From positions 9,855,736 through 9,919,735 of the forward strand of contig JABAKD010000019.1 in the NCBI GenBank assembly GCA_012845835.1: a stretch of DNA of 64,000 nucleotides, in the 5' to 3' direction. The notes below the pieces were generated by a model. It worked only from the letters and a program-made list of their open reading frames with translations, was not told where the DNA came from and ran no database searches. A program made the translations under genes and the position numbers. This DNA comes from Undaria pinnatifida (taxonomy: Eukaryota > Sar > Phaeophyceae > Laminariales > Alariaceae). Below, one piece after another: positions 25,916-60,245 of this stretch (positions within the stretch are counted from its first letter, which is position 1; each line of letters starts with the position of its first letter).

Positions 25916-26308
25916 CGGATCCACCAGCCAAACTACTACTACTATCGAACCGTCGGATCCACAAGATTTCATGTGTGTTCTTTACATTAAATTCATAATT
26001 CCACCCATCTGTATATATGTATTTTCAATCACATCTATTAATAGCAGTATAGAGTATCCGCGGCGACGCTGCTGGAGCAGAGGGGGGAGAAAGAGACGAG
26101 CTCTGTGGTCAGACTACACCCATCCATGTGTAATGCTGTTGTTACCTATTTATGCGTACGTATGAATCATAACTAAACTGGTTGTGTGATACTAGTGCGT
26201 TCATTTTCATTTTTTTGGTATCTTCCTTCATGTTTACCCGTGTTTGTTTTTTTCGTTTTCTGCATTTCGTAGTAGTAGTGTTGTTGGCCTTTCTCCCCTG
26301 CAAGTTGT
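25916..26308. other. Inner left-arm sequence
   Basis: T-rich sequence shared with 46773-47180 in reverse. It contains an R2-like GTGTGTTCTTTACATTAAATTC. No gene recognised. Confidence 0.5.
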
Positions 26309-26635
26309 CAGGTGCGTGTACGTTTTTTTTTGTTTGTTTTTTTCATCTTCCGGTGGATGGGGAAAAATAAAGCTCAAGCTCACCACACTTCCACGTATTT
26401 TCATACGCGTCTTGTTTCCATTTAACTCAATTGCTTTCGCAACCCAACGCTAGCTGGCGCACCCTTCGGATCCCACTGTCTGTAGTGATAGCGTGAGCTG
26501 ACCTTATCAGTGGTCCTCGTTATAAACCCGGCAGCGCAAGGTATAGTTGTATACGGATGCCTGTGTATGTCGACCCGGTCTGTCCCCTGAGCGTCAGGTT
26601 CGGTGGAGATAGCCACCCGGAATGTCATCTAGTGT
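26309..26635. repeat. Repeat R4 at inner end of left arm
   Basis: Landmarks are CACGTATTTTCATACGCGTC, CAACGCTAGCTGGCGCACCC and GGTTCGGTGGAGATAGCCAC. The reverse complement is at 37868-38156 and a partial copy at 30815-30925. This is where the palindrome ends and the unique spacer begins. Confidence 0.8.
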
Positions 26636-30334: not shown

Positions 30335-31026
30335 AAGGATGTGTTCGGTACGGTGCGTACCAAGTCGTACCGGCGGTATATACCGCCGGTATTACCGGTA
30401 CCGAACACTTCGGTAAGTTCGGTATAGCGTCAAAACCGGTACTAGAAACTTCGATAAGTTCGGTACGGCATCAATAACGGTACCGGACAATTCGTTAACT
30501 TCGGTACGACATCAATACCGGTACCGGCGGTGCCGGTGCAGACTTTCGTACCGGTACCGGACGCTTCGATAAGTTCGCTACGATGTCAATACCGGTGCCG
30601 TACATTTCGGTAAGTTCGGTACAACATCGATACCGGTACCCGAAAACTTGGGCAAGTTCGGCACGTCAACACCGGCACCGGACACTTCGATAAGTTCGGT
30701 ACGGCATCAATACCGGTCCCGGACACCTCGGTACGTTCGGTACGCGATAATAATACCGGTACCTGAGGTACCGATGTGCACATACGTACCGGAGCCGGTA
30801 CCGGTATTGGGACAAAAAGCAACTGAGTTTCATCGACACACGACGCGTATGGAAATACGTGAAAGTGTGGTGAGCTTAGGCTCTATTTTTCCCTATCCGC
30901 CGGAGGATGATAAAAAAGAACGGTACAGCATCGATACAGGCACCGGACACTTCGGTAAGATCTGCACAACATCAACCCGGTACCGGACACTTCGGTACGT
31001 TTGGCACGGTATCAACCCGATTCAAC
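30335..31026. repeat. GGTACC-rich minisatellite, block 1
   Basis: Irregular units of about 40-48 bases built on CGGTACCGGACACTTCGRTA, AGTTCGGTACG and CATCAATAC repeat more than ten times. The block is interrupted at 30810-30915 by an R4 fragment. Palindromic GGTACC and ACCGGT sites recur in nearly every unit. Confidence 0.85.
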
Positions 31027-31156
31027 CACATTGTGACTTCATCCCTTGGGGCTTTGGCTCCAGGCAGCACCCCAAGCCACACACACCCCGGTCCCCAATC
31101 ATCTTCCAGTACGATCGGTATACCGAGACTCTAAGCACACATGTGCAAGAGTGCAA

Positions 31157-31487
31157 CTTCCCAGTATGAGGTGGCCTCCAGTGGTGGTGATACCAACGCT
31201 CCTGGTGGCGGATCATCTTTGCCAGCTCCCACACCCATCGGCGTCGGCGGCAGAAGTTATTGACGTGGACGCGGAAAATAAAGTGCTCAGTGCCTGTTAT
31301 GTTGCCTGCTCCTGTGTACAACTCGCTCACGCGCGACGTGTATGAATTACCGGTGGAGACGATCAAAGCCGTGGATGGTTTCCCGGTGCCGGCTGGCTTT
31401 CGGAGGGAAGGGACGCGTGAAGCCTCGTATATGTATTCGATTCGCGTGTACGTCGAAACGATCGACGAGAAGACGGCGCCCAGCTGA
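31157..31487 (+). pseudogene. Coding-like remnant between minisatellite blocks
   Basis: Two frames look protein-like. YEVASSGGDTNAPGGGSSLP at about 31167-31256 ends in a stop. A second frame from the ATG at 31299 reads YNSLTRDVYELPVETIKAVD, then PAGFRREGTREASYMYSIRV and ends YVETIDEKTAPS at 31487. They may be one gene broken by a frameshift near 31250. I do not recognise a family. Confidence 0.3.
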
Positions 31488-31599
31488 TAATCCTTAGGGT
31501 ACCTTACCTTTTAACAGCATATCAAGACTGAGATTGAAAAAGAGAAGAGTATTGAAGAAATAACAACCGATCATATTTCAGTTCAATTATATACCTCCA

Positions 31600-32045
31600 C
31601 TGGTACCCCCGGCCCATACCGGATGTGCTCAGTACATGTACCACCAGTTTATGTCCAGCTTATGTACCTAAGCGCAAGTGTGCGTCCGTACCTTGTCAGC
31701 GGGATATACCGCCGGTACTGCCCGGGATATTTTTTCAAGTGTGTACCGGTACAGGTACCGGTACAAACTTTCGTACCTTTCGTACCGGTACCTTCCGTAA
31801 GCTCGGTATGACATCAATACCGGTATCGGAGACTTCGGCAACTTCGGTAAGTCCGCACCTTGCCGGCGAGATATACCGCCGGTACTGCCGGTATGTGTAT
31901 TCGAGTGTGTGCCGGTACCGGTACCGGTACCGGTACCGGTACCGGTACCGGTACAGACTGTCGTACCGGTACCGGACACTTCGATAAGTTCGGTACGTCA
32001 TCCATACCAGTACCTAGAATACCGATACCGTACCGGACACACCCT
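31600..32045. repeat. GGTACC-rich minisatellite, block 2
   Basis: Same units as block 1. It contains an uninterrupted run of seven CCGGTA hexamers (31912-31954), a fully self-complementary array. Confidence 0.9.
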
Positions 32046-33432: not shown

Positions 33433-33498
33433 AATATATATATACCTGGTACGCATGTATATGTGTACTCCAATCTATATTTGACGATTCTCGCTCAC

Positions 33499-34278
33499 CT
33501 CCAAGTTTTCCCTTTCGGGCCTCCTGCGCGCCGTACCCACGAAAGCAAATGGGATGTCTCTGTTCTCCGCCTCTAGTCCGCCAATCATCTCCGGGGTTGT
33601 CAGGACGCTGCTGGATGTGTACGGCACCGTCACCATCCGCCCGCTGCAACCCCACATCGACCACGTCTCAATTTTCTCGTTGATGCCAACGACCGCACGA
33701 CGCAATAGCATTCGTTGTTCCGCGTTCATCGCTAGTCTGCCGCAGTTGTACCAAGCACACACCACGACGTGATCCGCCCCACCGAATCTGTTGAAGTATG
33801 GGCTCTTCCTCACAAGGTGCATGATGGCCCTGGTCACCCTCTGCGGGTGGTTGACTCCACCACAATACTTGCTCTTGTTTAGGAGCTTGAAACCAAGCAC
33901 GGGGTAAAGGGGAACGAAAAAAACATCCGCTTTCTCCGGATCCAAGACGCGCCATGGGTGCGAAAGGAGTGATTGGTGTAGCCAGATTTCCCCCATATCT
34001 TGTGCCATGTCGGTGCGCTCATCTTGCCACGGAGGCACGCCCGAATGATGATCGCGGTAGCACTGGATCAGTGCCGTGTGATCGAACACCGGGTCGTCGT
34101 AGACATAGACACTCACCCGGTTAGCGTCCTCAACTTCCAGCTTGGGGGCGAATTCGCTCGAGGTCGCAAAACAAGACTCCTGTGACACCAAAATTGCTCC
34201 TGCCAATAGTGCTATCAGAACGGCTCGAAAAGTGAGCGTTTTCTGTGCGCAGTTGCGGCTTCCTCTGCGGACAAGCAT
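33499..34278 (-). CDS. Exostosin-like GT47 glycosyltransferase, first exon only
   Basis: The first ATG in frame is at 34278 and gives 260 codons up to donor GAG/GTGAGC (33498). A short basic N-terminus is followed by a hydrophobic anchor TFRAVLIALLAGAILVS, then VSVYVYDDP, DMGEIWLHQSLLSHPWRVLD, PEKADVFFVPLYPV, SPYFNRFGGADHVVVCAWYN and IPFAFVGTARR. This is the order of the N-terminal exostosin (GT47) domain of type II Golgi glycosyltransferases, which add sugars to polysaccharides or proteoglycans. The C-terminal half, with the SRR...GC.PV donor-site region, is not found down to the palindrome, where R1 and other repeats lie instead. Either the next exon is far away or the gene is truncated. 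Confidence 0.75.
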
Positions 34279-34302
34279 TATACGCGAGGGTTTCAGTGCC
34301 AC

Positions 34303-34549
34303 GCGTACTATCGCTCACAAGTAAGAAGAGATGAGGTTATCTGGCCCTAAAGGCTTCCTGTCGACTGCTGCCGAACAACCTCTAGCAGGTACCTGGTAGT
34401 GCAACACAAGGGATGCCAGAAAAATGCAAGCGGGTGGCAGGGAGGCGGGGAAACACGGGGGATCCTAGTGTGGAGCTGTTGTTGGTGTACGTTCGCTAAT
34501 ATTAAAAAAAAAAAAACAACACTCCATTAAACTATATATATGAATATTT
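34303..34549. other. Upstream region of GT47 exon
   Basis: This would hold the promoter. I see no clear TATA box or other motif. Confidence 0.3.
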
Positions 34550-37867: not shown

Positions 37868-38885
37868 CCGGAAAGATGGCATTCCGGGTGGCTATCTCCA
37901 CCGAACCTGACCCTCAGGGGAAAGGCCGGGTCGACATACACACGCATCCGTATACAACGACAAACGGCAGCTTGCGCTGCCGGGGTTGTAACGAAGACCA
38001 CTGATAGGGACAGCTTACGCTATACCTACAATGAGACCCGAAGGGTGCGCCAGCTAGCGTTGGGCTGCGAAAGCAACTGAGTTAAATCGACACACGACGC
38101 GTATGAAAATACGTGGAAGAGTGTGGAGAGCTAAAGTTTTTTTTTCCCCATACGCTCAAGGGTGCACGAAGATTCCAATCCAGCACACTTATGTACCCCC
38201 CCCCCCCCCTACCGAAGGGGCGTTTTTTTTTTTTTTTTCCATTTTTTTTTCAAGCGACAACCCGTTTGACCTGTACTCTTGCTGTGCTCGTAGTAGTTGA
38301 TCTCGTTTTCTGTCCTAGTTTCAGACGTCTGCATGCTTCGCAGAATTGGTTAACAAGTGCCCCATCAAGGCTCCCCGCTATATTCAGGCCACACAATTTG
38401 AACGAAGAGTCAACGTCACAACATGGTGCATTGCGCGTGAAGCACTAGGGATGTACCACGAAGTGAGGGTTCACACCAAAGGAAACAAAACAGTCAACCA
38501 GTAGATAGATGCTTGCCATGATGAACGAAGTACTGTTGCACGCTGAGACTTGTGTAAGAAGAGGTAAAGCTTGAGTGAAGGAGCTCGCCTGAAGCAGACA
38601 CATCGAAGTTGTTGCCGTCGACACGATTTATGGTGCTTGTCGATAAGGACAACTCCCATCTATCATCCCCGCGGCAGCGGGTGCACTGCAAAACACGGCA
38701 GCACGTTGCTTGCCGTACCTCGGCCGTACCAACAACACTTGGAGCCCCTGGGTGAAAGAGTATAACAGCAACGAACAAATTATGTTTGCCTTCTAACGCA
38801 TACCCCCTTCATCACGGGCGATATCTTGTTGACACCCAGTCAATGCGACACCCTACAAGTGTACCGCTGCATGACTCTCATGGGA

Positions 38886-39119
38886 TCAAATGAGAGCGAA
38901 GTGTCTCTTCTTGATACGCGTGCGCCCCCTCGAGCTTACGCTCGGCTGCAGTGTACCCTCCTCCTCCTCGTCGTCCTCCTCCTTCTCCTCCTCGTCCTCC
39001 TCCTTCTCCTCCTCGTCCTCCTCCTTCTCCTCCTCGTCCTCCTCCTTCTCCTCCTCGTCCTCCTCCTTCTCCTCCTCGTCCTCGTCCTCGTCCTCCTCGT
39101 CCTCGTCCTCGTCCTCGTT

Positions 39120-39158
<39 letters not shown>

Positions 39159-42100
39159 CTCCTCTTCTTCCTCCTCTTCCTCCTCCTCCTCCTCCTCCTC
39201 CTCCTCCTCCTCCTCCTCCTCCTCCTCCTCCTCCTCCTCCTCCTCCTCCTCCTCCTCCTCCTCCTCCTCCTCAGAGTCGACAATCTCCTGTTCGTCTAAG
39301 ACTCCGCCGTTCTGTGGCGCTCGTGCACGCTGCTTGCCCTTCCCCCGTTTAGCCATTACGACTGAGGCTCTGAGACTCTTGCTTCTCTTGCCCTTTCTCA
39401 ACATGTTTACCACCTTCGACCTCTCTGTCTCGCCCACATCAAAGCTGGCCTTGAATCTCACCGTGTCAGGATCTGCTTGCCCCATGGCTAGTGAAGCTGC
39501 GTGTTGCTCCCGCACGTGGTGAGACATGCAGCACTTCCACAGCCAACGATTAGGGGTGCAAAACAAACACCAAAGGGGTACGTTGGTACATGGGGTGGCT
39601 GCCGTACTTTTTGCCGCCGCTTTCAGGCCGATCGCAACGACGGTCTTTCGCGAATCCGTCTTCGGTGCTAGCGGGCAGTTGGAATGAATCTAAGATGCAG
39701 CCTTGCCCTTAGTCGGCACGACCACCCACGTCTTGCAGCCATCTCCACCACAGAAGCCGCACGTGTCGCGCTTTTGAAGGTCCTGCGGGATTAGCACCGT
39801 CAACGGACCAAGTCAACGTCTTTTGACGAGATGCACAGGTTGAAACAAAAAACAGTCATACAGTTTCTAAACCGTCGGACGGATCAGGTATTCAGCGTGG
39901 GTGTAACGGCTGTGGCCAATTTTCGCGGGAGTAACCCTAGGAGTTTTTCCGTCAAGACCATAGGCACGACTGCAAAAACCTTTCGCTTTCAGGGCAGACG
40001 AACCTCACCTCGTTCTCGAGGATGTGTCCCGCCATGTGCTGCAGAAGCTTTTTCGGATCCGTCTCCAAGAAGCAAAGTGGACACTCGACCTTCCCGTCAA
40101 CAGATGCTGCCAGAACTTCGCCTGCCCCAAGCGTCTCGCGAGACGTGCAAGTCAGATCGTCATGCAGAGGAAGCGGGTCCTGGTGGCCGCGTGGAGGCTT
40201 GCGTACATCAGGAACGGCCGCCCAGCCCTGGACGTTCTCCACGATTTCTTGCAGCACATTGAGTGTTGTGGTCATCTCGTCCATGCTAAACACGTACGTC
40301 ATCTTGTCCATGTCCATCGTCGGGTCCAGCTCGATGACCAGAGCAACAGAACAACTGTACGAGGTGGTCGTGTGAACTTTTCGATTTGCCCACTCGAACG
40401 TCGAACCAGTGCCCGTCGCAACCAGCTTCATGAGCTTCCCCTTCACCGTCTGTCCTGCTCCTTCGTCTCCTGTTACCGGTGACTCCGACACGACTAGAAC
40501 CCCGACGCAGTACTTCACGGGCTGCTGACGGTCTGCACGGAGTCTGAAAAGCGTTGCAAAGGGAGAGCCTATCTGCAACGTTTTGCCAACGTCGTCTAAG
40601 CTTTTGCTGCCGCGGTCCATGTCTACGCCGGTACGGGTCGTGAAGCCCCGCACACGTGCGAGGCGGTCGCGGGAAGCCGTCCCTGCATGAGATCCCGTGA
40701 ATTCTTTCACAGCTGAGGCCTTGAACACCTGCCACGAAACCCAAAAATCAAGATAAACGTAAGACAACAAGTCATTTATACAAAAAGAAGCCCCATTTTA
40801 GGGTCGCGTCCTTCTGATTTCCCAGGATCTCACACGAAAGCGCAAACGTGAAAACTCGTGTTGCTACAGAGGCAGGCACACGCCACGTACGTGCGCCATT
40901 TCAATAAGTGTCGTTTCCGACACGCATATTGTGCTTCTTGCTCTGGGAAATGGCGACAGGAAATAAAGGTCGAGCGCTCGTTTGGTAAGGCTTACAACAG
41001 GTTTGAACGCACCTTTTTGGCGCCGATTTGCACAAACTTGGAGTGGCGAGGCGGCCCTGAATTTTCCCCTACAGACTCCGTCTCCAACGCTTCTCGAATC
41101 TCAGCGTCGTCACTCTCCCCGTCACCAGCATCCTGACCTTCCGCAGAAAGCGACTGGGTCTCAACACTCGAAGACGCCCCCCGGTCAAGATCTTCCTCGT
41201 CACCACCTCCGGTGTCACCGCCCGAGCGCATCTCTGGCATGTCCGAGTCGGGCCTGCAAGGACACGTGTGGTGAAGGGCGGGGCAGAGACGTGACTTTTT
41301 TTTTCTCTTTGTCATTTCAAGGTAATTCGAAGTACACATCCACACACATCGACCAGAGTCAATCTTGACGCAGACACACGCTTAACATACAGTAGTGCTT
41401 CAAACGGCTCATGACAAATCAGGGAAAATGTGAAACGAACAGCACTTATCCGACTAGCGCACCTACCCGAAAGGGAAGAACATCGTGACGCGCTTTGCCT
41501 CGAGGTGGTCGAAGGTGTCTTGAGTCACGTCGGCGAAGTCGTCGTGTGCCTGAAGAACTCTAAGCGCAGCTCGCCGCCCATCATTCCAGCATTCAACCAC
41601 GTCCAGACCCCGCACGTCGCAGCCTCCGGCTGGTCCAGCTTCCGACCAAGTCTTCACGTTCATGTGGTCGATGGAGTCGTTCAAGCGACGAGACTTCTTT
41701 GCCCAGTTCGGGTGCTTCGCGTAGATCTCCTCGAGCGCGACAGCAGCACCAAGGCGGTCACCAAGTTCCTTCCCGTCGACGTTGCTGGCGTGTATCAGGG
41801 TTCGTACCACCGCAAAGCTATTCTCAAGCGCATCCGTACCGATCTGCCAGAGGTACAGATCCATTGCCGGGCAGTGCTGCTGAACTTTGAGCGCGCAGAA
41901 GTAGATGCCTCGGATGGTAGCCTGCAGGTCGTGGTAGAGCTGGCCCGTCATGAAGGCAGTTCGTCGAGCACGGAAAATGATGAGCAGCAAATGCGACACG
42001 CGCGAAAGCCCTTCCAGAAGTTGTCCCACTGTCTTGGCAGGGTCGCACAAAACAGCGAGAAGGTCTTCTGCGATTGCCGCTTTCACCTTTGTCCGGAGGA

Positions 42101-45100
42101 TAAATCGGCGACACAAAAGGACAAGACGGGGAAATCTGAGCAAGGGTTTGTGCAAGGTTTTTAGTCCAGGACCGTCGCAATCGTTCACGCCCTGAAAGGT
42201 GAAGACGGCGACAAGCCCCGGTGGTGCTCGGCCTGCGCGAAATGAGCTATGTATGTCATCCCATAATTTTTCGCCTACTCATCCATCAGCCTCTCGTGTA
42301 GAATATTACACATGGACGAGTGCTAAGACGAGGCTCTGTGTCTGCGAGAGATCAACATCTCACCTTTAGGTCGCGGTGCAATGCTGCCAGCCCCGGCTTC
42401 GTGGCCAACTCGTTTACCCTGTCCTGATCAGCGTTCGCAACTTCAACCTGCTTCGCCATCAGCCTCACAGCGAGCCCAACATTCTGCCTGCACCATGAAA
42501 CAAAGACAACCACACGGGAAGGTAAAAAACTACAGAGTTTCAAAATGTCGTCGTGCCTAAGGTCGTACTTGTGACGGGCTAGTTCGTTGTTGTTCATACG
42601 GATGGCATCCAGCACAGCCAACCACACGCGGCGCATGAAAGAACACGTACGCGAAGATGCTGATGAAACCACCAAATGTACAGCAATGATCCTTCTAAAA
42701 ACGTGCTTGTCGTCCACGTTGAACAAGCTGCTGTAAGTCTCTTCCGGCTTGCCGTCGTACCACCGAAAGAGCTCTGGGTAGCTGTCGCGATTTAGCGGAA
42801 GCCCCTCCCCCGAAATCGTGACACCTTTCTGCGAAAGATCTCTCGTTCGATTCGTTTGTCGTTGTGCTTCATGTCAAACCTCTGCACCACGCCGCAGATG
42901 CTAGTGTTCGAGTCGATGAGCTTCAAAGGGGCCAATTGCGTGGACTTCACAGCAGAAGTAAAGTCGAAGAGCATCGGCCGCCGAACCCCATCCCCGTCCG
43001 AAGCCAACAGCACGATCGATCCAATGGTGCCCGCGAACCGGTCCTCCCACACCTCCAGTATCTGGTGTTGACGAAGGAGGTATAAAAACATAGCGACTGG
43101 TCGTCAATGATGCAAAGGTACGGCCCACAGGTGCAGCGAGGTACCAAAAAGTTCAACATCAACCTTAGATTGCCTAGGAGTAAGAGCTAGCAAATTGATT
43201 TTACACACTCGGCCGTTGTTCATGTTATTTGTTGAAGATACACTTCCGTTGTTGGAGTTGGAATGCCGTTGAAAGGGAAACGGGGCCTAGACCCGCACCA
43301 GAACGGTGCAGCACAAATCTTGCTTACCGTCTTCAGAACCCGCATCTGCTGTTGAGGATTAGGTGCCTTACAGCTGGCAAAAGCCGCCACTGGTATGGCG
43401 TGGTGCGGACGACGCCCAAGAGCCATAGCGGCGATGACAGTGTGCTCGCTGCCGATGTGCGAATGTCCCTCGCCGAGGTTCTTCGACAAGTTTTCGAGGT
43501 TGGAGAGGCCGCCGAACTTCGTGTTCTCGATGGAAGTATGCTGTACGCACAAACCCAAAATCTGGGGGGCAACAAAAACGAAAAGAACACAGTCCGCACG
43601 TTGGATGGGTTGCTTCTCCTGAAGGAATAACTTGATCGGAAACCCTTGCAATCCTTACTCGCGGCGTAAACCTTGATCACCAGAAACACAACATGTTCAA
43701 CGTAGCCAGCACTACCGAAAGTGCATGCGACGACAGCACACAAAACTTCCAACCACCTACCTCGTCCGTCGGACCATTATAGCGTGCACGTTGGTCGGTC
43801 GCGATCTCGTCGATCTGAAGAATGATCACTCTCTTCTCGCCCTCGTACAGCCCCGCAAAGCGCTGTAGATTCGCAGTTATGGCTGCGATCAGGCACTTTC
43901 GCTCGAGCGATGCACAGACCACGAACTTCATCTGAAACAGGCAGAACGACATCGTTGCCGGAAGGACCAGAGAACTTGCGTTAGGTGTAGTACCAATAGC
44001 AACAAACACTTGAGGAACAGGTGAGAAACAATTGAGAGACGCCATGACTTCTGATGCGACCAAACGATGAGTTCTACTTCGCGCGAGAGCGATCTAGCTA
44101 GTTCCACTCACCGAAGGTGCGGCGATCTTCGCGTACACCGCCGTTGCTCCCGGAAAACCTGCTGCTTGGTGTAAAGCGTGCAGCATTGCTTGTCCTCCGA
44201 GCCGCATCGCGAGAATCGCCAGGTCAAAATCGTCCTCACTGTAGCCCTTCGCCTTGTAGGTACCACCCACTGCCTGCTTTAGTCTGTGCAGAATAGCGTT
44301 CATCGACAACCCGTCTCTCCGGGCCTGGCCCATCAGTCTTCTCACGCCACCCACATCGTGGTCCGCTAAGTAAAAAAACATGCTCTTGGCGAGTGCTACC
44401 CGACGATGAGAGGTGGCGCATTTCCTGACCTGGTTCAGGGTATAAAGCTTCTGCACTTCAAATCTCCCCTTCCACCTTTCGGAGCGGTTTCTTTTCTGGT
44501 ACGGAGTCAAGAAGTCGATAGCCAGCCTGTTCAGCCCGTCGTCTTCTGCTTCCAGCGCCGATCTCTGAACCAAAGCTGAATACAGACGGCACAGCGGTAG
44601 AGCAAACAAGCAGCAGCTAGTGTGTGAGCGAACACGTGTGATGGAGCGACGTTAAATACGCCCAGCATGAACCACGTCGCGTGCCGACTCGAATTCAATG
44701 GCCATCACTACCCTAGTTTGAAGACTCGAACTGACTCTCACGTCTGTAGGCCTTGCCGTACTTGATTTCCGTGCACGGGCGGCATGTTTGTCCCGGCTGT
44801 TCCACCGTCACGGTACAACCTGGACTGAAGATGCCGCGGGACGTGGTCGCCAACGCGTGGAGGGCTATGCGATTTTTGCGCACCCGCACTTCCCAAGCCA
44901 CTACCGTTGCCTGGCTGCCGATGCCATGCACAGTCAGAGGGTAGTGTTGAAGAACAGGCTCCCGGACTTCCGGAGCTGTCCCTACACAGCAGTGGGGAGT
45001 TTCAACACTTGGTGTGTTGGTGGAGCCTCGCCTATCTTCAGCGCCAGAATGCATGTCGTCATCCTCGCCCCACTCGCCCAAAATCCCCTCAAGCCCGCCC

Positions 45101-46537
45101 GACTCTTCATCCATACGTTCCCCAGCATCACTACCAACCTCGTAACCATCTGCACCGCCCGCCTGAAGCACCTCAACTTCATCGTCTTGGTCTACATGGC
45201 TACTGCTGTCCGCATCCCTCGTTGAACTCGCAACTGCCACGGGCTTGAAAAAGGAAACGAGCGAGCGCTGTTTCGCGGCATCCACGGCGTCCCTGCCAAC
45301 GTAAACAACGGACATTCCTTGGTAGCTTAGTTTATGCCGAGAGATTCAAGGTGAACGTCGTCATGCAGCACTTGTGGAGCAACATCATTTGTTTCGCGGA
45401 TGCCACGTACACGCACAACTACTCCTGTAGCATTAGGAGGGCACTACTTTCGAAGCTGCGCAAAATGCTAGCTTGGCCGACTGCTGTGGTGATGAGCTAC
45501 GAGCGCTCTGAACGCACACTGGATCAATATCCTAACATCTCAAAAACTGTCCTCACTTGTGGTATTTCGAGTCTAAGTGCGATGTCACATGTTGCTCCCT
45601 CCACATGCGTGCATCGGATCCGAGAACTTTGGAACACTTCGTGCAGACCCACTTGCCGCCGATCTTCTTCGCGATCTTTGCCACTGGCAACGCTGATCTG
45701 CACTCGTATTCATGGGAAGGTCGTTGTTGGAGAGCGGGGGACACGGGTCGGGTCAGAGAAGGGGCCGGTGGAGCCTGTCATATTTCTACCTCCGTAGCCA
45801 CATCAGTGGACACGACAAGCCAGCAGCACCGCCCGAAAGGGCGACAGACCGCATCCAACGTCGATGTACCAACTGCCTGTACTAGTACGAATACTCCTTT
45901 GTAGTCAAGACAAGGTCAGGACACTCGTACAAAATGATAAGGCAATCTTTGCGCCAGGAAAAAAAATTAGAATTTTCTCGCGCAGCATGTACGCGATCGA
46001 TCTACTGTAAGGTTAGATCCACCAAGTATCCCCCTAAACTCGCTGCTGTTGCTACCTTGCCACTCCTGCTGCCTCTCCAGACTGTCTGACTACGTGACAT
46101 CGTCGAGTGTTCTGCGTTGTCTCCCAATGGCTGTACCAGGCACTCCTCTCTCCCAAACACTACCACCTAACTGGTACAGCAGTACCTGCCAACCTGCTGC
46201 TGTAAGGATGCTGTTCATGTTTGCGTGTCCTCGTTACAAGACGGATTTTTCCGGCGAGTCAGGTGTACGGGACAAAACACACAAGCCTTGGACAAGCTAA
46301 GGTTAGAAGCTCACTTGCAGTCCTCGTCACTCACTCTCTGTGCCTTTCTGAAGCCTCGTGCTGTCGTGCCTTCTCCGCGTCCACGCTTGAACCGTCGCCG
46401 AAGTTGTACCCGCACGCGCAAACGTACGCGGAGCCGTCGAACTTCTTCGGACAAACACCCTCCAGCCATGCCTTCTTGTCGAAGGGATCCGCCAATGGCT
46501 CTGGCCGGTCTCCCCTGGAGCTAGCACTCGTACTCAT
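38886..46537 (-). pseudogene. TE1 transposase-like gene, 11 exons, two disabling lesions
   Basis: Exons on minus: 46537-46335, 45697-45557, 45292-44742, 44575-44112, 43931-43761, 43561-43328, 43061-42364, 42086-41467, 41253-41013, 40728-40009, 39782-38886. All ten introns are GT-AG and phase-consistent, giving about 1,645 codons. In order it has two Cys/His fingers (CACGYNF..., WVCTKC...H), an acidic region, TCRPC, then QIDEIATDQR, ASDGDGVRR and QIGTDALENSFAVVRTL. It ends with CPLC...H...H, CGFCGGDGC, PCTNVPLWCLFC...H...H, a Glu/Asp tract and GRTRIKKRHF. The acidic motifs are DDE/D catalytic candidates (inference). A GA insertion at about 42838-42841 shifts the frame, and exon 7 is 2 bases over a multiple of three. 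TAG at 39690-39692 stops the last exon. From memory it resembles an uncharacterised family abundant in agaricomycete fungi. Confidence 0.85.
38955..39272. repeat. Coding TCC/TCG microsatellite (Glu/Asp tract)
   Basis: Over 300 bases of TCCTCC/TCGTCC repeats within the last TE1 exon encode a run of more than 35 Glu, preceded or followed by Asp-Glu alternation. The plus-strand poly-Ser and poly-Pro frames are antisense artefacts. Confidence 0.9.
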
Positions 46538-46772
46538 GAACTACGAGCCTCCTCTCTTGCTCCTCTCTATCGCTCTCTGTGTATCTACGGTACGCAGCAG
46601 CTCATGCTGCAGCACACGGTGTATTTTATATGAGAATTAGTGTAGGAAGGTTTATATAGAAGTTTGTGTGGCGTCGACACGGGGGGGATGGGTGCCTGGT
46701 ACCCTCCCCCCCGTCATAATAAAAAAATAGGACATACGAGGTGTCGAAGAATTTTTTTTCCGTGCACCCTTG

Positions 46773-47752
46773 ACACACCTGACAACTTGCAGGGGAGAAA
46801 GGCCAATAACACTACTACTACGAAATGCAGACAACGAAAAAAACAAAACACGGGTAAACATAGAGGAAGATACCAAAAAAATGAAAATGAACGCACTAGT
46901 ATCACACAACCAGTGTCAGGTATCATTCATACGTACGCATAAATAGGTAACAACAGCATTACACATGGATGGGTGTAGTCTGACCACAGAGCTCGTCTCT
47001 TTCTCCCCCCTCTGCTCCAGCAGCTAGAAGGAGGCGTCGCCGCGGACACTCTATACTACCATTAATGGATGTGCTTGAAAATTTACAGATGGGTGGAATT
47101 ATGAATTTAATGTAAAGAACCACACATGGAATCTTGTGGATCCGACGGTTCGGTAGTGGTAGTGGTGTGGCTGGTGGATCCATTTTTTTTTCTTTTTTTC
47201 TTATTATCCCATTTGTTATCCTCCCATTGCTCGCGCGCCTCCTCTCAGTAGTAGCTCAAATCTGGGGTTACATAGCGGGCCCTTCTCCCCCCTCCCCACT
47301 ACGGAACGTGCCTTCTTTTTATCGCGAGAGTAATTCAGCATCTTCTTCCCTCGTCGACTGTCGTCGAATTGTGCAGCACTGGGGTTGAACAACGTGCACA
47401 CAAAACTGTGCGAAAGCGGGCAGCCGCCTTGTACATGCGATGCCCACTGCTGTAGCCTGCCTGTGCTGTGTGTTGTCGTCACAATTCTTTTTAGCCAACG
47501 AGATCAGTACACCCAGTCAGTGTGGGTGCGGATTTTTCATCCCATTTAATAGAGAGATGCCAACAATTTGGTCACAGACTACTGCTGTGACAACTGTGAG
47601 ACGGAAAAAAAATATATATATATAATTCATCAAGGTAACTAAGAACAAGTGAAATGCTGGCGGGCAGGGTACGAGAACACACACACATAAAACAACCCGG
47701 GCCATAAACACACCTGGTAAGCAAAATAAGCGAATGCCGACATATATAGCTG
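46773..47752. repeat. Inner right arm: SINE and R2
   Basis: Mirrors 23925-26308 without the left-only LINE. It includes the SINE body on minus (47180-47405) and an R2 3' end (47510-47690). Confidence 0.65.
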
Positions 47753-48527
47753 CCGAAGTGTATTCGAATATTATTTGTGACCTAAACCTCCTAAAAATCC
47801 CCCCCCCCCCCCTCTTGCTCTCCCTTACTCAAACGCCCCACCAAATATCAAAATCCGCCACATTAACAAACACTTCACGCATAGGATATCACCTCATTAT
47901 CTTTCGAGAGCCATCCATGCCGCTGTGTTTCCCCCCCCCCCCCCCCTCCAACGCCCCTTCTTTCCCGACCACCTGCACGATCATGTAGACCTAGCACCAC
48001 GCGTATAACAAGCTGATACATATCTTTGATCTCACAGCCGAATTGTATTTGAATATTATTTGTGACCTAAACCTCCTCAAAAACCTCCCCCCCCCCCCCC
48101 CTCTTGCTCTCCCTTACTCAAACGCCCCACCAAATATCGAAATCCGCCACATTAATAAACACTTCACGCACAGGATATCACCTCATTATCTTTCGAGAGC
48201 CATCCATGCCGCTGTGTCCCCCCCCCCCCCCGCCTCGAACGCCCCTTTCTTCCCCATCACCCGCACCTTCGCCTAGACCTAGCACCACACGTATAACAAA
48301 CCCCTCACCTAAAGCCCTTTCCCCCCCCCCCCCCCGCCCCCCGCCCCCACCCCCCACCCTCCCCCCCCAACCCATCCCAACCCCACCCCCTCGAACACTC
48401 CACCCTCTCTTTACTCACTGATTGTACGACTTACCCCAGAATATACACGATAAACTGATGTATTATTTCCAAAAATGTCACATTTGTCCCCTCGAAATAA
48501 TGTATAGTTTCCAGGCACATATCGAGT

Positions 48528-48568
<41 letters not shown>

Positions 48569-48964
48569 CCCCCAATAATATACTGGTGCCAAAACCGTCA
48601 GATTTATCCCCTCGAAAGGATTTATAGCTTACATGCACAAATTGCCCCTTTCCCCCCCCCCCCCCCCCGCCCCCCTCCAAACCCGCTCGCTTTTGATCAA
48701 AACCAGGCCCCCCCTTTGCCTTCACAGCTGTCAGATTTTGTCCCCCTCAGAAACGGGTTTTATAGTTTCCGCGCACAGACTGACTAAAATCATCCTGTTG
48801 ACCCTGATAGCTACACTGTAGCTGTAAGGGGAGTCGCCGACCTATATCCTTAATGAGGACACACAACTCGTAATGCGCGCGATCGGAGTATCACACACAG
48901 CTTGCAAAGATGAGTTTCGACGAAATCTTCGATCTCACAGCTGGAGTGTATTTTAATTTTTATA
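47753..48964 (+). mobile_element. R1 retroposon, 1.2 kb, right arm only, 9-bp target duplication
   Basis: Flanked by ATATAGCTG at 47744-47752 and 48965-48973. The left arm has one copy (about 23919-23930) and no insert. It holds two R1 bodies head to tail, many poly-C tracts, then the R1 tail with GTTGACCCTGATAGCTACAC and AGCTGGAGTGTATTTTAATT. There is no coding potential and no poly-A. Confidence 0.85.
48530..48567 (+). repeat. 38-base poly-C run
   Basis: Thirty-eight consecutive C residues inside the R1 element; the longest homopolymer in the window. Confidence 0.9.
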
Positions 48965-49096
48965 ATATAGCTGGTGCAAATAACACGAAGAGGAATACAG
49001 TAGGAGATCCCGCGATACAGGCCAGCGGGGATGGAAAATAAAAAGTAAGGCACTACCAAGGGTCCCCGAATAAAAAAAAACCGACACACCCTTGGG

Positions 49097-50698
49097 CAAG
49101 GGCACTCCAAAAAAAAATCCGTAACCCTATGTCCCTTTTTTTTTCATTTTGGACCGGCCGGGGGGGGGCTCTCAGTACACTAATTCCTACATAAAATCCA
49201 AGCAACACTAATTCCCATACTAAAAAATTGATTTGTTATTAGACTTTGGGTGCTGGCGGATCTGGCGGCAGAGAAGATAAGGTCAGCTAAGAGTCCGGAT
49301 ATAGGTAAACGCAGGTGGGAGTCCAGTTACACTGCCATGGTCCAATCGCCTCAACAACTCTGAAATCGGCACTTAAGGGTACGACGAGTTCACCGTGTAC
49401 CAATGCGCCGCTGAAATGCATACTCTGCCACGACCACTGGGAGTGGAAATACTCTATGAAAAGCCATGTGGACGCACTGCACGCCGGAGACATCATGATG
49501 AGGAAGGAAGACGCGGCTGGCCGAGCGTTTCTCGAAAGCATCATCGTCAGCGAAGATGAGAAGAAAGCTGTGAGCGCAAGCCTACAAAAGGATCTGAAAC
49601 GAACGGCTAGAGCACGTGGCGGTGCTGGAACAACCACGGTGGTAATTCGTGGGAAAGGCGAGGGGAGAGCCAAAGGTGGGAAGGGCAGCAAAAGTCCCGT
49701 CGACGACTCCAGCGATACGAGCGAAGGTAGCGACGGTGATAGCGACAACGAGGACGGAGACGAGGATGAGGGCGAGGGAGAGGACGAGGAGGACGAAGAC
49801 GACGAGGAGGGAAACGAAGAGGAGAGGGCGGCCGGTGAGGCCGCCGGGGGGGCGGCAGGGGGGCCTGCCCTTTCGGTACCCAGTCGGTTTATGAAAAGGA
49901 AAAAACGGAGGTACGGGCAAGGAGAATCGGAGGAGGAAGAAGAGGAGGAGGAGGAGGAGGAGGAGGAGGAGGAGGAGGAGGAGGAGGACATAGAACAAGA
50001 GGGAGGGGGGGCAGCCGGGGAGAGGACCGGGGGGGTTGCCTCTAAAGTAATTTCGGGAGTAAGTAGGGCCGGTCGGGTTAGGATTCAAAAAAGGCGTTTC
50101 GAACAAGTAGAGTGAGACAGACGCGGAATAATAGTGCAGCCCTGCCGGGGGTGGGGAGAGGGAAGGTCACTTGCGGCGAAACGCCGGAATGTTTCCGCGT
50201 CTGCACGCAGCGACTGTATGTAACGGCCGAACTTGGCAAGGGAGAGTTGCAAGCTTGAGGCCGGAGGCGGGGAGCAAGGGGATGAAGTACTACTAGTCTA
50301 CAGCAATCGTCATCGCAATTGTCTGTGGCTCACGTTACTTGCAAGTCGGGCATTCTAAACTCATGCTGGGTGTAGCGTTGTGTGACGAGGATTTCTAGGT
50401 AAATTAATGTGGAAAGCAAGCGACAAAGTATCGACAACACTTGACAACACCGAACAATATTTGACAAAACAGGGCAACAACCAACAACAACAGCCCGAAA
50501 GCACGACGTAGTTTGTTGTGTTTGTTTAATTGCTCTGGATATGTCGTTGCGACAATGCATGGGTGCTATCTTGCTGACCAACCATCGACAACAAGCCTAA
50601 AATCAAAGTTACTTTCCGAAAAAAAAAACTTTTTTTTCAGACGGCTGACCCGGGGGGGGGGGACATAGAGTCCGGATTTTTTTTTTGGAGTGCCCTTG
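49097..50698 (+). mobile_element. TE2: 1.6-kb non-autonomous DNA transposon with 7-bp target duplication
   Basis: The ends are perfect inverted repeats CAAGGGCACTCC (49097-49108 and, reversed, 50687-50698), extending imperfectly through poly-A/T, ATCCG and CTATGTCCC. CCTTGGG flanks both sides (49090-49096 and 50699-50705). The left arm has the site once, unoccupied, near 23800. It encodes only the last exon of a TE1-like gene, so it must rely on another source of transposase. Confidence 0.92.
49303..50115 (+). pseudogene. TE2 orphan last exon of TE1-like transposase
   Basis: After a possible acceptor at about 49308 (AACGCAG) the frame reads VGVQLHCHGPIAST, SSPCTNAPLKCILC, WEWKYSMKSHVDALH, a Ser/Asp/Glu-rich region, a GAG-encoded Glu run (49929-49988) and GRVRIQKRRFEQVE-stop at 50115. 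TE1 has PCTNVPLWCLFC, WLWKCCMSHHVREQH, an acidic tract and GRTRIKKRHF-stop in the same order. Upstream exons are absent. The finger is C-x2-C-x12-H-x4-H. The frame is intact, but it cannot encode a full protein. Confidence 0.8.
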
Positions 50699-50705
50699 CC
50701 TTGGG

Positions 50706-52824
50706 CACTATTAGTAAGGCAGAGAGAAAACAGGAACACGACATCTGCCCCCCTGGATGAGCGCTGACGGGAGCCGCTGGAAGCATCGCTAGTCTTGTTC
50801 GTGAGTGTTGTGGTGTTGTGTTACGCGTACTGCTGTGTTCGCAATGCGTACCTCAGTCTCGTGGTTTGTGGCCATGGAGCTTGTCTCTGTATGAGACATC
50901 AGCACGGCCGCTGGTTGTGCTGGATTTAGATGGGTGGAAACGTCGGGTTAATATTATGAAGAACACTCCCCGCATGGTATGTCACCTGCTTAGACTACTG
51001 TTTTGCTTGACAGCGGTGTCCGCATTTTGTCATTCTTTGTACTCAAGACACGGCACAAAATTAAGCAAACATTGGGCAGCAAGGCAGACGAAACCACCCA
51101 ATCGGCGTATATCGGCGTCGGGGTGTGCCAGGTGGAGTAGATCAATCTACTACACTAATCTCTCTACTTGATGTAATAGAGGTTTCCGTATAATATTAAG
51201 AACTCTGTACAGTAATAATAGTAGACCGTGTGGTATTCGGAACATAGGCTTCGCGAGCGACCATTAGTATGATAAATGCTATACCTCACGAGGAATCATA
51301 ATATGCAATTGATTATATGCACAGCAGTAGTGTTTTCTACAGCGAACAACGCGAACAATGAAGTCGTTCATCCTACATATTGATGGTTTGCTTAACTTTG
51401 CTAACGTCCTGACTATTACTACATACAGTCAGTAGCACGACATATACTAAATAGGTCTGTTTAGCAAAGTTGCACTAAATGCGTAATATAACGAACTCTT
51501 CATGGCCAGAAGTGCGCAACATCTCGAACATTAACGAACGACATTGCACTGGATTCGCTCGGGTTGGGAGAGGGTTCGAGGGTTTCGGGGTTCTCACCTT
51601 GAAGCGCGACATGTGCCAAGCAACTTGTGCCTCTCTTAAACATGTACTTGGCTTAAACTGAGCCCAAATAACTGTACCAGGTATCAGGTAACCATGACTG
51701 CAGAGCTATATGTACTATGCATGGAAACAGAAACATTGCCGCATGGCCTGTCGTGTGCTCACGAGGTCTGACGACGGAGATGCCTGCACGTCCCCTGCGT
51801 GTGTTCTTTATATCATATCTTCCCACCCATCTTTCACTTCCAGCACAACCAGTGTCCGAGCTGATGTTTCATAGAGAGGCGAGCTCTTCGGACGCAAACT
51901 ACACGAACGAGACAGTTACAAGTAACATATATATCCCAAATATAGCGGTTGTACTCGTACTTATTATACTCCAGTCCAGAGTAGATATCGTGTTGTAGTG
52001 TTGTGTTCCGCCTATATTTTTAAAATGATAAAATTCACTTCAGCTGCGAGATCGACCAAAAAAGTTTGTTGACCAAAATTCAGCTTTGCAAGCTGCGTGT
52101 GATACTCCGGTCGCGCTTTTTATGGCGTGTGTATATCCTCGTGAAGGATGCAGACCGGTGACCCCCGTGCTAATGCCAGGGTCAACAGGACTCAAGACGT
52201 TCAACCTTGTTCTGCGCACTGAAGTTGTAACACCCGCATCTATACTGTGGGTTTTCTTCACGTTGAACCGTTATTTCCACCCCACGGCATCAGTAAACTC
52301 AGTATCAGTGCTGATTTCCCATCCTAGAGAGATACAAATTATTTGGTCACCGACTGTGAGAAAGTAAAAGGAACGAAAAACAATCGCAATTAATCAAGGT
52401 AAACCGAGTGAAATGCTAGCGTACCGGGTTCCGGAACACAACGAACAAGCCAGACCGTTAAAAGCAGTAAAAAACGACAGGAGTCCTGAAGAATGTGATG
52501 CAAGGAGACCAGAAAGACTCCAAGAATAACAGCAGACGTGCTGAAGAGGAACAGATAACTACTGTTACACGGACGAAAACAACACAAAGAAGAGGAAACC
52601 ACCGGCATAGGGCCGGTACGGAGGGGTAATAAGGGAACAAAGAGGGAAACAAGGCAAAAACAAGAGGCCGAAGCAAGAAAGCACGACAACAAGAACAGTG
52701 TCACTGCTGCCGCTTTCGTGCTTCCTCCATTGAACTCAAAGAAAAAATCAACACAAAAGCAAAATATACCACTCACTGTAGGGGGGTCAGGGCTATAGTA
52801 TAAACTGGAAAAATGTTATAAAAA
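50706..52824. repeat. Right-arm counterpart of 20860-23800
   Basis: R2 3' ends lie at 50860-50965 (+), 51805-51895 (-) and 52255-52776 (-), with a diverged R1 tail at 52030-52200 (-). The left-arm LINE insertion is absent. No intact gene. Confidence 0.6.
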
Positions 52825-53655
52825 ATGAAATACACTCCAGCTGTGAGATCAAATATTTTGTCGAAAACTCATCTTTGCAAGCTGTGCGTGATACTCCGAT
52901 CGCGCGTATTACGGGTTGTGTGTCCTCGTTAAGGATTTAGGTCGGCGACTCCCCTTACAACTACAGTGTAGCTATCAGGGTCAACAGGGTGATGTTAGGC
53001 AGTCTGTGCGCGGAAACTATAAAACCCCTTTCTAAGGGGGACAAAATCTGACAGCTGTGGAAGGAAATGCATCAGTTTATCAAGTGCATCATGCAAGTCG
53101 AATAACCGGTGAGGGGAGGGCGGAGTTTGTAAGGACGTGGGGGCCTGATTTTGATCAAAAGGGGGGCGGGAAGGGGGGAGTCGGGGGGGGGGACGGGTGG
53201 GGCAGCTCAATTCGTGCGTGGAAACTATAAATCCTTCTTGTCGGGGGGGGGGGGGATGTGGCGGGGGGAGAGGGGGGCGGGGGCGGGGGGGTTAGGTCGT
53301 ATAGATGAGGGGTTTGCTAAACGCGTGGTGCTAGGTCCAGGCGATGGTGCGGGTGGTGGGGAAGGAGGGGACGTTGGGGGCGGGGGAGGGGGGGGCATTG
53401 CAGCAGCGGCATGGACGGCTCTGAAAAGATAATGAGGCGATATCCAGGGGGTGGAAGTGCTTATTACGCTGGCCGATTTCGATATTAGGTTGGGCGTTGA
53501 GCAAGAGAGAGCGAGGAGAAAGAAAAAAGGAAAAAAAGGGTTTTCAAGAGGTTTAGGTCACATACAATATTAAATACACTCCAGCTATGAGATCAAGTAC
53601 TTGGTCGACACTGACGTTCGCAACATTGTGTGTGATCTTCTGATCGCGCGTATAT
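52825..53655 (-). mobile_element. R1 retroposon, mirror of 20005-20815
   Basis: G-rich on plus; same R1 tail, CCCCCTCAGAAAG-type block and second tail in reverse. Confidence 0.7.
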
Positions 53656-53770
53656 GTAGGGGGTTGCTATACGGGCGGTGCTGGGTCTAGGCGGTCGTGC
53701 GGGGTATATATGGTATATTATAGTAGTAGCACACGCTCTACTTTTTTACCTTGCTACACGTTCTTACGTT

Positions 53771-54808
53771 TCATTTTTGCTTTCGTCGACAGCTGTTGTA
53801 GGTATCAGTACCCCCCCCCCCCCCCAACGTTTTCCCCTTGTTGTGCTCTTTCTTGGCGTCCACTGCCGCGTGGCGTAGCCAGCTCTTTTCCGCGTCGCCC
53901 CTGTGCCATCTCGTCACGAAGCGGTCCGCCGCGTCGACGACCCCCCGGTGCCAGTTCTCACTCTTCTTAGCCGCCTTTGGCCATAGCACCATCTCTATTC
54001 CGAACAGCAAAGGGGATCTATCATCGGTGGACCTCTCGGTGACCTGAAATGCCCTGATGTCTGCTAGACATTGGGCCCGGTTCTTTTCTGGTCGGCCTGG
54101 TCCCGGGATCTCCCCACCAGCCATTGTCCCGAACATGACACGATGAGTCAGCCGCTCATTTGTCGTCCGTTGTACTGCTCCCCCAAAGATGAGGCGTCGT
54201 TCGCGGATGGTCGTCTCAACGCTCTTACATTGTGCCTTCTTGACAGCTTTGACGTACGGCATGAGGTGGTCGGTGCAATGTCGGTGCTGGAATCCAATGA
54301 CCATTAGGAGGGAGCTGTGGCGTGCGGTTCGGAACTCAGTGAAGTGCTCCGGGCCAAGGGCCTGAGTCGCAATTCCGTACAGCAGGATCTTCACCACCTC
54401 GGTCTTTGGCAGGCGCACCTTGAGTCTGAACCGGGCATCCTCCATACCGTACGGCCCACGCTTGAACCGGTCGTAGCATACCTGCGCGAGTCGGATCCGT
54501 CGTTTGATTTTTGGCATATTGTCAGTGCTTGCGTCGATAAGACCGCATATGTACAGCAATTTCATCGTCTGCATATATATATATATATATCTGGCCAGCT
54601 GCTTCAACGACGAGCGTTCGGGTACGGAGTGCCTGATTGGGTGTGCGCAGCACCATTTTCGCCGTTTGTTTTCGGACACGGTAAGGCCTGCTGATTCAAA
54701 AACGGTCACCATGACCGCCATCATCTTCGCAATGCCTTCCGCCGACCTAGACACAATGCCTGCATCGTCGGCGTACACCATACGCCAGGCTCTCACCTGC
54801 GCACACAT
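53771..54808 (-). pseudogene. LINE reverse-transcriptase C-terminal half (type A), right arm
   Basis: One open frame of 345 codons, longer than the left-arm copy. RMVYADDAGIVSRSAEGIAK is near its start, followed by LKVRLPKTEVVKILLYGIAT, QALGPEHFTEFRTARHSSLL, ETTIRERRLIFGGAVQR and EIPGPGRPEKNRAQCLADIR. The left-arm TAG after YGIAS is a sense codon here. The frame is cut at YADD, so fingers and endonuclease are missing; it is a truncated LINE, not an enzyme. A short TA repeat near 54570 adds YIYIY. Confidence 0.85.
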
Positions 54809-54965
54809 GCTAGTGGTTCAACCTCCACACTGTCCTCCCCGAGGTCCTCCTCGAGGTGAACCATGCCCCTCAAAATGTCTGGGTTCACATTAAAATGTAC
54901 CAAAACGGCGCCGCAGCGGCGAAAATTACATGGAAGAGAAAGGATGACAATTTACGTCCTTGCCG

Positions 54966-57900: not shown

Positions 57901-57983
57901 TCGCCCTTGAGATTGACAACCAGCTATTCTGGAAGTAGCCCGCAATGTATAAGACGACCAAACTGCAAAGTACCACGTAGTAT
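54966..57983. other. Right-arm counterpart of 15563-18610
   Basis: Contains the SINE with B box GGGTTCGAATCATCC (about 55061-55075, +), R3 (about 55412-55720) and AT-rich sequence. A frame at 55318-55716 (MSRKVKYDDLSMHVKSAAII...) spans the R3 copy. It is open here and broken in the left arm; I do not recognise it. Confidence 0.5.
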
Positions 57984-59247
57984 GTGGCATCATCTCTCGT
58001 GCATACTCTGAATATTACACTACTGGTACTAACCAGGCAAGGCCTCAGGCAAGGATGCGTGCTCGCGCCTCTGCTGTTCAACATGTTTTTCACGGCGGTA
58101 CTGCGTGTGGCCGAGAACCACTTCCTCGCTGATGCAGCCATCACGGACAACATGGTGCAGCTCCAACGAAAGAAATACGAAAAAGAGGGACTTCACGCAC
58201 AGGCAAAGTTGACCGGCGGAGGGGGAAGGAGGTGGAGGTGCAGATAATATGGTGTATTCTGTACGCTGACGATGCGGGCATCATATCGCGATCATCGAAA
58301 GGGCTGGAGAGAATGATGACGGTGATCGTAACTGCGTGCTCGGCGTTCGGGCGCACGGTCTCCAAGGCAAAAACAGAGATCATGTGTCTGCACGAAGAGC
58401 GGGGGGAAGGCGTCGTTCAATCAATGCAGCCGGCCAGGTATACAAGCAATCGAGTTTGTGTACTTGGGCAGGGCTATCACCGCAGACAGACACCTTAGCA
58501 TTCAAACAACGCCGCGTCTTCAGAGGGCATGGGCGTGCTTGCAGCGATACAAGATGGAAATCTATGATCGCCCGGGTGTGTGATTACGGTTGAAGGTGCG
58601 GTTGCCGAAAGCCGAGATGATCGTTATACTACTCTACGGTTGCATGACATAGAACCCGAACAAGTCTGACTATGGCAGGTTACGACGGGTTCACCACTCC
58701 ATGCTTCTCCGATGCCTCGGATGACGGAACCGGAAGCGCGACGACCACACCCTATCGTACGACGACGCGCTTTCCAAGACAGTTTCCAATAGCATAGAGG
58801 AGATAGCCCGCAAACAGAGGATATTGTCTGCAGGATTCGTAGCACGTATGGGGGAGGAGCGTCTGCCACAGAGGGTGACGTTTAGGGAGCTTGTTTGGTG
58901 TATGGGCTACTCAGGGGGGCAAGAGAAGGACTGGACGGCTCATCTGAAGGAGGATATGTCGGTCTTTGGTTGTGAAATTGAAAGAGTGGCGAATGGCTGC
59001 TCAGATGGCTCGACGACTCGAGGAGGGAGCCGAGTTGTTCATACGGGAATGGCATGAGACGGAGAGACGCAAAGTTGCAGATCGACGCGCAAAGGCCGCG
59101 GCAGCGCCATTCACCATCGGCATTTCTAAGCGGCCGGGGGGAGGGGGGAGGGGGATAGGGGGGAAGCGGGAAGGGGGGCGGGCGGAGGGGGCGCGTCGTG
59201 CTCAAGAGACTGAAGTCTGGGTCTGGGTCTGGCCATCATCGTCTTGA
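57984..59247 (+). pseudogene. LINE reverse-transcriptase remnant (type B), right arm
   Basis: Mirror of 14285-15562. In order it reads TRQGLRQGCVLAPLLFNMFF, WCILYADDAGIISRSSKGLE (YADD intact), RVFRGHGRACSDTRWKSMIA in a shifted frame, SAGFVARMGEERLPQRVTF and RRLEEGAELFIREWHETERR. At least three frameshifts separate these, so it is inactive. YADD here against CADD in the left arm shows independent decay after the duplication. Confidence 0.8.
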
Positions 59248-59414
59248 AATTTGTGGACCTTCCAATGGCCGTCATAAGTTAGCGTAATGCCGCCGTGGCT
59301 GCTTCGCCTTGTTACGTTCTCTTCCCAGTGCCATTGATGCACTTGATACCCTCTGTGAGCCCAATGCCGTCCTTTTGTCAGTTTTTAGGGCCTGCTAGTA
59401 GAACGCTTTTCATC

Positions 59415-59890: not shown

Positions 59891-59993
59891 CAACAACAAT
59901 TCCCCTACAGCCGTCAACCGTCACCATTATATCTGCGAAACCGGATGACATATATCGTACCAGGCGTTTCTTTAGGAAAATGCACGGCACAAT

Positions 59994-60245
59994 CTACGGT
60001 AGCCCCCCCAATTTTTCTCTAACCAAATCGCCGGTTTTGAAAGCAGCCCACGGCCGTGAAGACTCCTGAATACGGTGCCCTTCGCCACCCCGACGTCATC
60101 GATCGATAGTCCTCCGCGAACAAGAACATATGTGAAGAAATACTTTTCATAGCATCCTTCCTCGTATCGAGCAGCCACGAAACGTTCGTTAAAGAAAATC
60201 TCTGCTTTTGGAGGGGGGCTATCGTAGAAACGGTCACCGATATCA
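59994..60245. other. Segment of about 250 bp present only in right arm
   Basis: In the left arm, GCACGGCACAAAACACATATCAAATG (reverse of about 13525-13550) replaces this whole segment. No terminal repeats or target duplication are seen, so it is more likely a deletion in the left arm. Two short minus-strand frames in it are unrecognised. Confidence 0.6.

Follow-up and report, generated by a model that had tools for sequence, protein, structure and literature searches.

A 64,000-nucleotide stretch of the brown alga Undaria pinnatifida (contig JABAKD010000019.1; "the window" below) carries an element, TE1, that we confirm to be a real cut-and-paste DNA transposon, and whose transposase, judging from its sequence, is very probably a relative of the P-element superfamily from a lineage without THAP. 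Few eukaryotic transposons are better known than P elements. The transposases of their superfamily are described as binding DNA through a THAP domain (PMC4168063). We call TE1 P-like rather than a strict P element because it has no THAP domain, carries other zinc fingers at both protein ends and differs in the spacing of its D-D-E residues. The assignment is based on paired terminal inverted repeats (TIRs), 7-bp target-site duplications (TSDs) found elsewhere among the copies, one arm of a duplication that has no TE1, a multi-exon gene under selection and five sequence blocks that occur in the same order as in P transposase.

Ends, insertion site and copies of TE1

The element, its ends and the corresponding empty place are as follows.

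38157..46772, minus (gene strand): TE1, the whole putatively P-like DNA transposon, 8616 bp (TIRs, empty site in the other arm, homologous copies)
38157..38168, plus: terminal inverted repeat CAAGGGTGCACG, at the gene's 3' end (28 genomic sites of this end)
46761..46772, minus: terminal inverted repeat CAAGGGTGCACG, at the gene's 5' end (inverted-repeat match)
26300..26370, plus: matching place in the other arm, without TE1 (arm comparison)

The window is a long inverted duplication of about 17-20 kb per arm (6275-26630 against 37874-38156 plus 46773-64000), in which the long arm blocks, 6275-26317 and 46773-64000, are 91-98% identical and the shorter block beside TE1 86%. The arms are separated by a spacer of about 11 kb, and TE1 interrupts one of them near its inner end. 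The spacer also holds an ORF (33478-34314, minus strand) that matches the Exostosin GT47 glycosyltransferase family (E 2.9e-17). Short tandem and inverted repeats cluster in it at about 30390-32014. Another ORF of the window (53774-54817, minus strand) resembles reverse transcriptase weakly and below threshold (E 0.0048), possibly as part of a decayed retroelement. In the genome EsV-1-7 repeats are very numerous, all 150 scored candidates out of 2157 being matches, and no match was found in 14 control genomes, those named being prokaryotes; this domain is reported to have proliferated in brown algae and to be otherwise mostly known from giant viruses (PMC12477816). The repeats by themselves would thus point to a brown alga as host. 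A RuBisCO search aimed at typing the plastid had no match in this assembly.

An earlier note on this DNA, made from the sequence alone, had described terminal repeats and presence in one arm, and both were borne out. The two ends form an inverted match over 12 of 12 bp. The right-arm match ends exactly at the right end of TE1 (46772/46773), and the left arm runs uninterrupted past the insertion point into the homologue of the other flank of TE1, to about 37874, at 86% identity. Since the left arm is continuous through the insertion point, TE1 was either inserted in one arm or cleanly lost from the other. The flanks of the window copy match at four of seven bases, the three differences being of the transition type, and therefore no clean TSD can be claimed for this particular copy.

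The 12-mer CAAGGGTGCACG occurs at 107 sites (45+62) in the 511-Mb genome, against 24 (10+14) for a reversed control. None of the eight single 12-mer matches that we inspected (L001-L008) continues like a TE1 end, so that the 12-mer alone is no proof of a copy. Longer patterns gave a clearer separation: a 30-bp left-end pattern, with up to three mismatches, had 28 genomic matches and a 37-bp right-end pattern had 10, both against none in the control. The genome search for CAAGGGTGCACG-ended copies that had been proposed as a check thus did recover them, and 17 two-ended copies, the window copy included, were examined for target-site duplications. Eight of the 17 have a perfect 7-bp TSD (L030, L031, L032, L033, L039, L058, L059 and L063, the last once a one-base insertion in its end is allowed for, without which shift it scores 1/7), and these eight sequences all differ from each other. 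In three further copies six of the seven bases agree (L029, L041, L061), and in the remaining six the TSD is poor (L060 with 5/7, the window copy with 4/7, and L034, L040, L062 and L064 with 1 to 3 of 7).

The coding region between the first and second candidate catalytic D (D1-D2) is found, whole or in part, at no fewer than nine loci, which fall into two subfamilies: A, with five coding loci (the window, L029, L039, L040 and L041), and B, with four (L042-L045). Two subfamily-B copies start with CAAGGGCGCAC and one finishes in its complement. Many other copies are internally deleted, for example to about 0.63, 1.8-2.1, 4.2 or 5.2 kb, and share both ends with the full-length element. One internal deletion junction is common to five copies of about 0.63 kb; L030 and L063 have junctions in common (L033 on one side only), as do, separately, L031, L032 and L064, and L039 has a deletion junction of its own. 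Identical deletions recurring at different sites show that the deleted forms were themselves mobilised. One copy, L034 (G000:C38:6560527-6565678), is chimeric, its middle part being inverted and duplicated and its 5' end beginning like a 3' end, a structure as after aberrant gap repair. The mobility that the earlier note had asserted is thus substantiated by the empty arm, the 7-bp TSDs at other copies and the deleted copies.

The transposase gene and selection on it

The gene lies on the minus strand in 13 pieces and a continuation of the last, listed here in the order of transcription with the comparison on which each rests.

46335..46537, minus: exon 1, with the start codon and the first Cys/His motif (46337-46453); counterparts at other loci
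45557..45697, minus: exon 2, with a second, CxxC...H finger-like motif (45559-45651); counterparts, and a weak Pfam zf-UBP match (E=0.0017, below cut-off)
44742..45292, minus: exon 3, acidic linker with a CxxC motif; counterparts at other loci
44112..44575, minus: exon 4, in which 44133-44243 corresponds to residues 157-193 of P transposase; ungapped score 33.0 there, against 0.8 at the next best place
43761..43931, minus: exon 5, with the candidate first catalytic D (IILQIDEI, block 43779-43832); P D230 ranks first among 559 windows
43328..43561, minus: exon 6, between the first and second D; counterparts, and a weak Pfam TNP-like_RNaseH_N match in L040 that spans it
42826..43061, minus: exon 7, first piece, with the candidate second D (ASDGDG, 42966-43019) and DxxH (FDMKH, in 42852-42896), and a frameshift at its 3' edge; block comparison
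42703..42825, minus: exon 7, second piece (piece 8); contiguous with the first piece in six of the seven other copies compared
42364..42483, minus: exon 8 (piece 9); counterparts at other loci
41467..42191, minus: exon 9 (piece 10), the rest of the insertion region and the candidate catalytic E (GTDALENSF, block 41793-41846); P E531 ranks first among 559 windows
41013..41253, minus: exon 10 (piece 11), acidic linker; counterparts at other loci
40009..40728, minus: exon 11 (piece 12), C-terminal domain with a C2H2-like finger at its end (40021-40083); counterparts
39690..39782, minus: exon 12, first piece (piece 13), with a CGFCGGxGC motif, ending in a stop unique to the window copy among nine compared; copy comparison
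38886..39689, minus: exon 12, continuation, with a CTNVPLxCxFC...H motif, a variable acidic tract, a conserved basic tail and the stop (about 38886); copy comparison

All introns are GT-AG, the weakest donor being the one after 42703 (GTTTTT), except between pieces 7 and 8, where there is a frameshift and no intron. All the pieces recur at several other loci, with L039 and L045 lacking some parts. The window copy is broken twice, by the frameshift at about 42825 in exon 7 and by a premature stop at 39690-39692 in exon 12. In six of the seven other copies compared pieces 7 and 8 are a single exon (the exception, L043, is itself disrupted there), and at all eight other loci compared piece 13 reads past the stop of the window copy, although L043 and L044 have stops elsewhere nearby. 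Judged from these other copies, the gene would therefore have 12 exons, predicted to encode a transposase of about 1600 residues. A coherent gene had been proposed earlier with 11 exons; the gene is confirmed, and the proposed number of exons is close to the 12 counted here.

Cys/His motifs at both ends of the protein, also proposed from the sequence, were found again in exons 1 and 2 and in the C2H2-like finger of piece 12 and the Cys-rich C-terminus. The acidic tract, whose combination with such fingers had been called unusual, is real, but this C-terminal tract (38940-39275) is coded by a GAG/GAC microsatellite and varies in length among the four subfamily-A copies compared.

Between the subfamilies (four A copies against L042, L043 and L044; 1052-1161 codons) dS is 1.03-1.13 and dN/dS 0.23-0.29. 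Within subfamily A dN/dS is 0.70-0.88 at a dS of 0.018-0.033, and within subfamily B it is 0.45, 0.47 and 0.85. Since dN/dS is low between the subfamilies and higher within them, the protein was selected while the lineages diverged and the individual copies drifted afterwards; that is, purifying selection acted between the TE1 subfamilies.

Probable relation to the P superfamily

Profile searches, proposed earlier as a way of checking the protein, answered in part. The one transposase family among the Pfam matches listed for TE1 and its relatives is TNP-like_RNaseH_N, the P-type RNase-H domain, with E-values of 0.03 for the window copy, 0.036 for L029 and 0.027 for L040, and scores of 15.0, 14.8 and 15.2 bits, all below the curated cut-off of 24.6. 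It was not among the matches for the two subfamily-B copies scanned, nor for any of the five alignment members scanned, though shorter pieces of L029 and L040 matched. A sequence search of the PDB returned no relative (there was one chance-like glutathione transferase, E 1.1), a profile search of the PDB was empty, and neither Pfam nor PDB gave a significant full-length match to the TE1 protein. AlphaFold models of exon 9 (piece 10) and of L044 pieces 6-8 with one intron were of low confidence (pLDDT 43 and 31). The weak Pfam names ATR1_WY, zf-UBP and p25-alpha were set aside as chance or generic. Nothing significant was found for TE1 in PHROGs (best E 0.16), and scans of IMG/VR viral contigs with two to six short patterns, for the core, the C-terminal module, the D1-D2 region and P itself, had no match. 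The PF21787 profile had no match in the alga's own genome or in the 14 control genomes and is thus uninformative, and no KDZ family was among those listed in Pfam scans of TE1 and its copies at E up to 10.

Because the plain searches were nearly silent, we compared blocks of the TE1 family, averaged over five copies, directly with Drosophila P transposase, whose sequence was checked against PDB 6p5a_A; P and Hermes were the sole two transposases so compared. The first-D and E blocks each rank first among 559 windows of P, at D230 and E531, respectively, and, depending on window size (552-559 windows), the second-D block ranks 3-10 at D303 and the DxxH block 2-6 at D339. No other of the 44,854 ordered D,D,D,E quadruples in P scores as high as the true catalytic set. 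A 37-residue pre-catalytic segment, just before the first D, scores 33.0 at P 157-193, with the next best place at 0.8. As an ordered chain the five blocks score 86.9 against Drosophila P (the summed score at the true P sites is 86.15), and none of 1500 shuffles of P scored as high (mean 31.6, sd 9.1, highest 73.8). Against Hermes, a hAT transposase, the chain scores 32.5, and 268 of 500 Hermes shuffles did as well. The pre-catalytic block was chosen after hhalign had pointed there and the DxxH block after the P signature of PMC8230255, i.e. both with P in view, whereas the three acidic motifs (QIDEIATDQR, ASDGDG and GTDALENSF) had been named in the earlier note independently of P. These three, suspected there of forming a D-D-E core, are conserved, stand in the right order and align with P transposase; the DxxH motif and the pre-catalytic segment, which had gone unmentioned, also align in order with P. 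A whole-profile hhalign comparison of the TE1 family with P was not significant (E 0.3, with 67 of 200 shuffles as high), although its single aligned stretch is in the right register. That the protein has no obvious match among the standard superfamilies, as the earlier note had it, is not upheld, given the five ordered blocks and the weak P-type RNase-H match.

With P/1360/Galileo TE1 shares the order and sequence of the pre-catalytic, first-D, second-D, D(2)H and E blocks, the comparison being with P. Between D(2)H and E lies an insertion of 220 residues in TE1 and 192 in P, where the P superfamily has its GTP-binding insertion. The 7-bp TSDs are in common with Galileo, a member of the superfamily described as having 7- or 8-bp TSDs (PMC4168063; PMC2775673), and many internally deleted copies are a feature of the P superfamily as well. 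The D1-D2, D2-DxxH and D2-E distances, in contrast, are 116, 41 and 261 in TE1, as against 73, 36 and 228 given for P (PMC8230255) and 88, 34 and 227 for Galileo (PMC4168063). TE1 further departs from the superfamily in its size (about 1600 residues, 12 exons, 12-bp TIRs) and in having, instead of THAP, two other N-terminal zinc-finger motifs and a Cys-rich C-terminus with an acidic tract. No THAP domain appeared when Pfam was run on ten pieces of the window and on the two joined pieces, which take in exon 1, and the THAP C2CH pattern, present in P, is absent from the first ~130 residues of TE1. Among the matches listed in the open-access literature, none describes a P element from a brown alga.

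If the assignment is right, zinc fingers at one terminus of the protein, or at both, would bind the TIRs or the adjacent internal DNA, and the predicted RNase-H-like DDE core, with its insertion of roughly 220 residues before the E, would cut the ends, probably by the P mechanism. The excised element would then be joined to a new site at a stagger of 7 bp. Copies with deletions may be moved in trans by transposase from full-length ones, and the window copy, whose reading frame is interrupted and whose ends are intact, would be a broken passenger.

Alternative classifications and implications

One may also consider that TE1 represents a superfamily of its own, which shares with P, hAT, Dada and MuDR only the DDE/DxxH architecture. 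The silence of Pfam and PDB over the full length, the missing THAP, the wide D-D spacing and the different zinc modules would all fit such a view. We nevertheless think it unlikely, as the five-block order is found with P and fails with Hermes, these two being the only superfamilies so compared, and the pre-catalytic segment matches P at a single place. With hAT, represented by Hermes, TE1 does have in common a DDE core with a C/DxxH motif and a similar E block (rank 2, 6 and 4 of about 600 at three window sizes), whereas the D1, D2 and DxxH blocks find no match there (ranks 40 to 263), and the TSDs are of 7 bp rather than the approximately 8 bp given for hAT (PMC3706591).

The most serious rival, although we regard it as improbable, is that TE1 is a Dada transposon, a superfamily known from Ectocarpus with similar proteins and TSDs. 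Dada has been reported from Ectocarpus and Laccaria (PMC3706591), and the Ectocarpus library lists one family with 15 copies (PMC12477816). Its published description, with 6-7-bp TSDs, a DxxH motif and a very long protein that is coded by many exons and has terminal zinc fingers, would suit TE1 in each of these respects (PMC3706591). According to the same source, however, Dada-U6 and Dada-U1 target RNA genes and have no terminal inverted repeats, whereas TE1 has 12/12-bp TIRs; Dada-U6_DR has the shorter spacing D68D176E, against D116D261E in TE1; and in the Laccaria and Ectocarpus Dada elements an exonuclease occupies the interval from the second D to DxxH, where TE1 has just 41 residues (PMC3706591). 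Dada families with known targets are described as sitting in one kind of RNA gene (PMC3706591), whereas the eight perfect TSDs of TE1 all differ, a diversity that argues against a fixed target. None of nine copy loci, with at least 300 bases of flank at each end, had an Rfam or tRNA match, although such a search could miss a gene that the element had cut in two. The comparison with Dada being one of published descriptions, these differences lower its probability without removing it.

That TE1 is a gene family of the host, lying among many repeats and with ends inverted by chance, for which one might cite the lack of a clean TSD at the window copy, has a negligible probability in view of the 28 sites of one end, the TSDs elsewhere, the deleted derivatives with both ends and the empty arm; the TSDs and the empty arm refute both the host-gene and the chance-TIR readings.

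Returning to a P-related transposase, we tentatively suggest, as a possibility that we would not yet favour, that TE1 represents a separate lineage without THAP, sister to the P superfamily, in brown algae and possibly also in mushrooms, agaricomycete proteins presumably agreeing with TE1 in block order and in the CTNVP...C..C ending. If this were true, the P-type catalytic core would be older and more widespread than the THAP-bearing animal elements, and THAP would have been acquired later. A brown-algal element that joins a P-like core to a different DNA-binding architecture would help to separate the ancestral parts of the P machinery. The curated Ectocarpus table has 51 DNA/Unknown families and no P row (PMC12477816), and TE1 may provide a name for some brown-algal DNA transposons that have so far gone unclassified.
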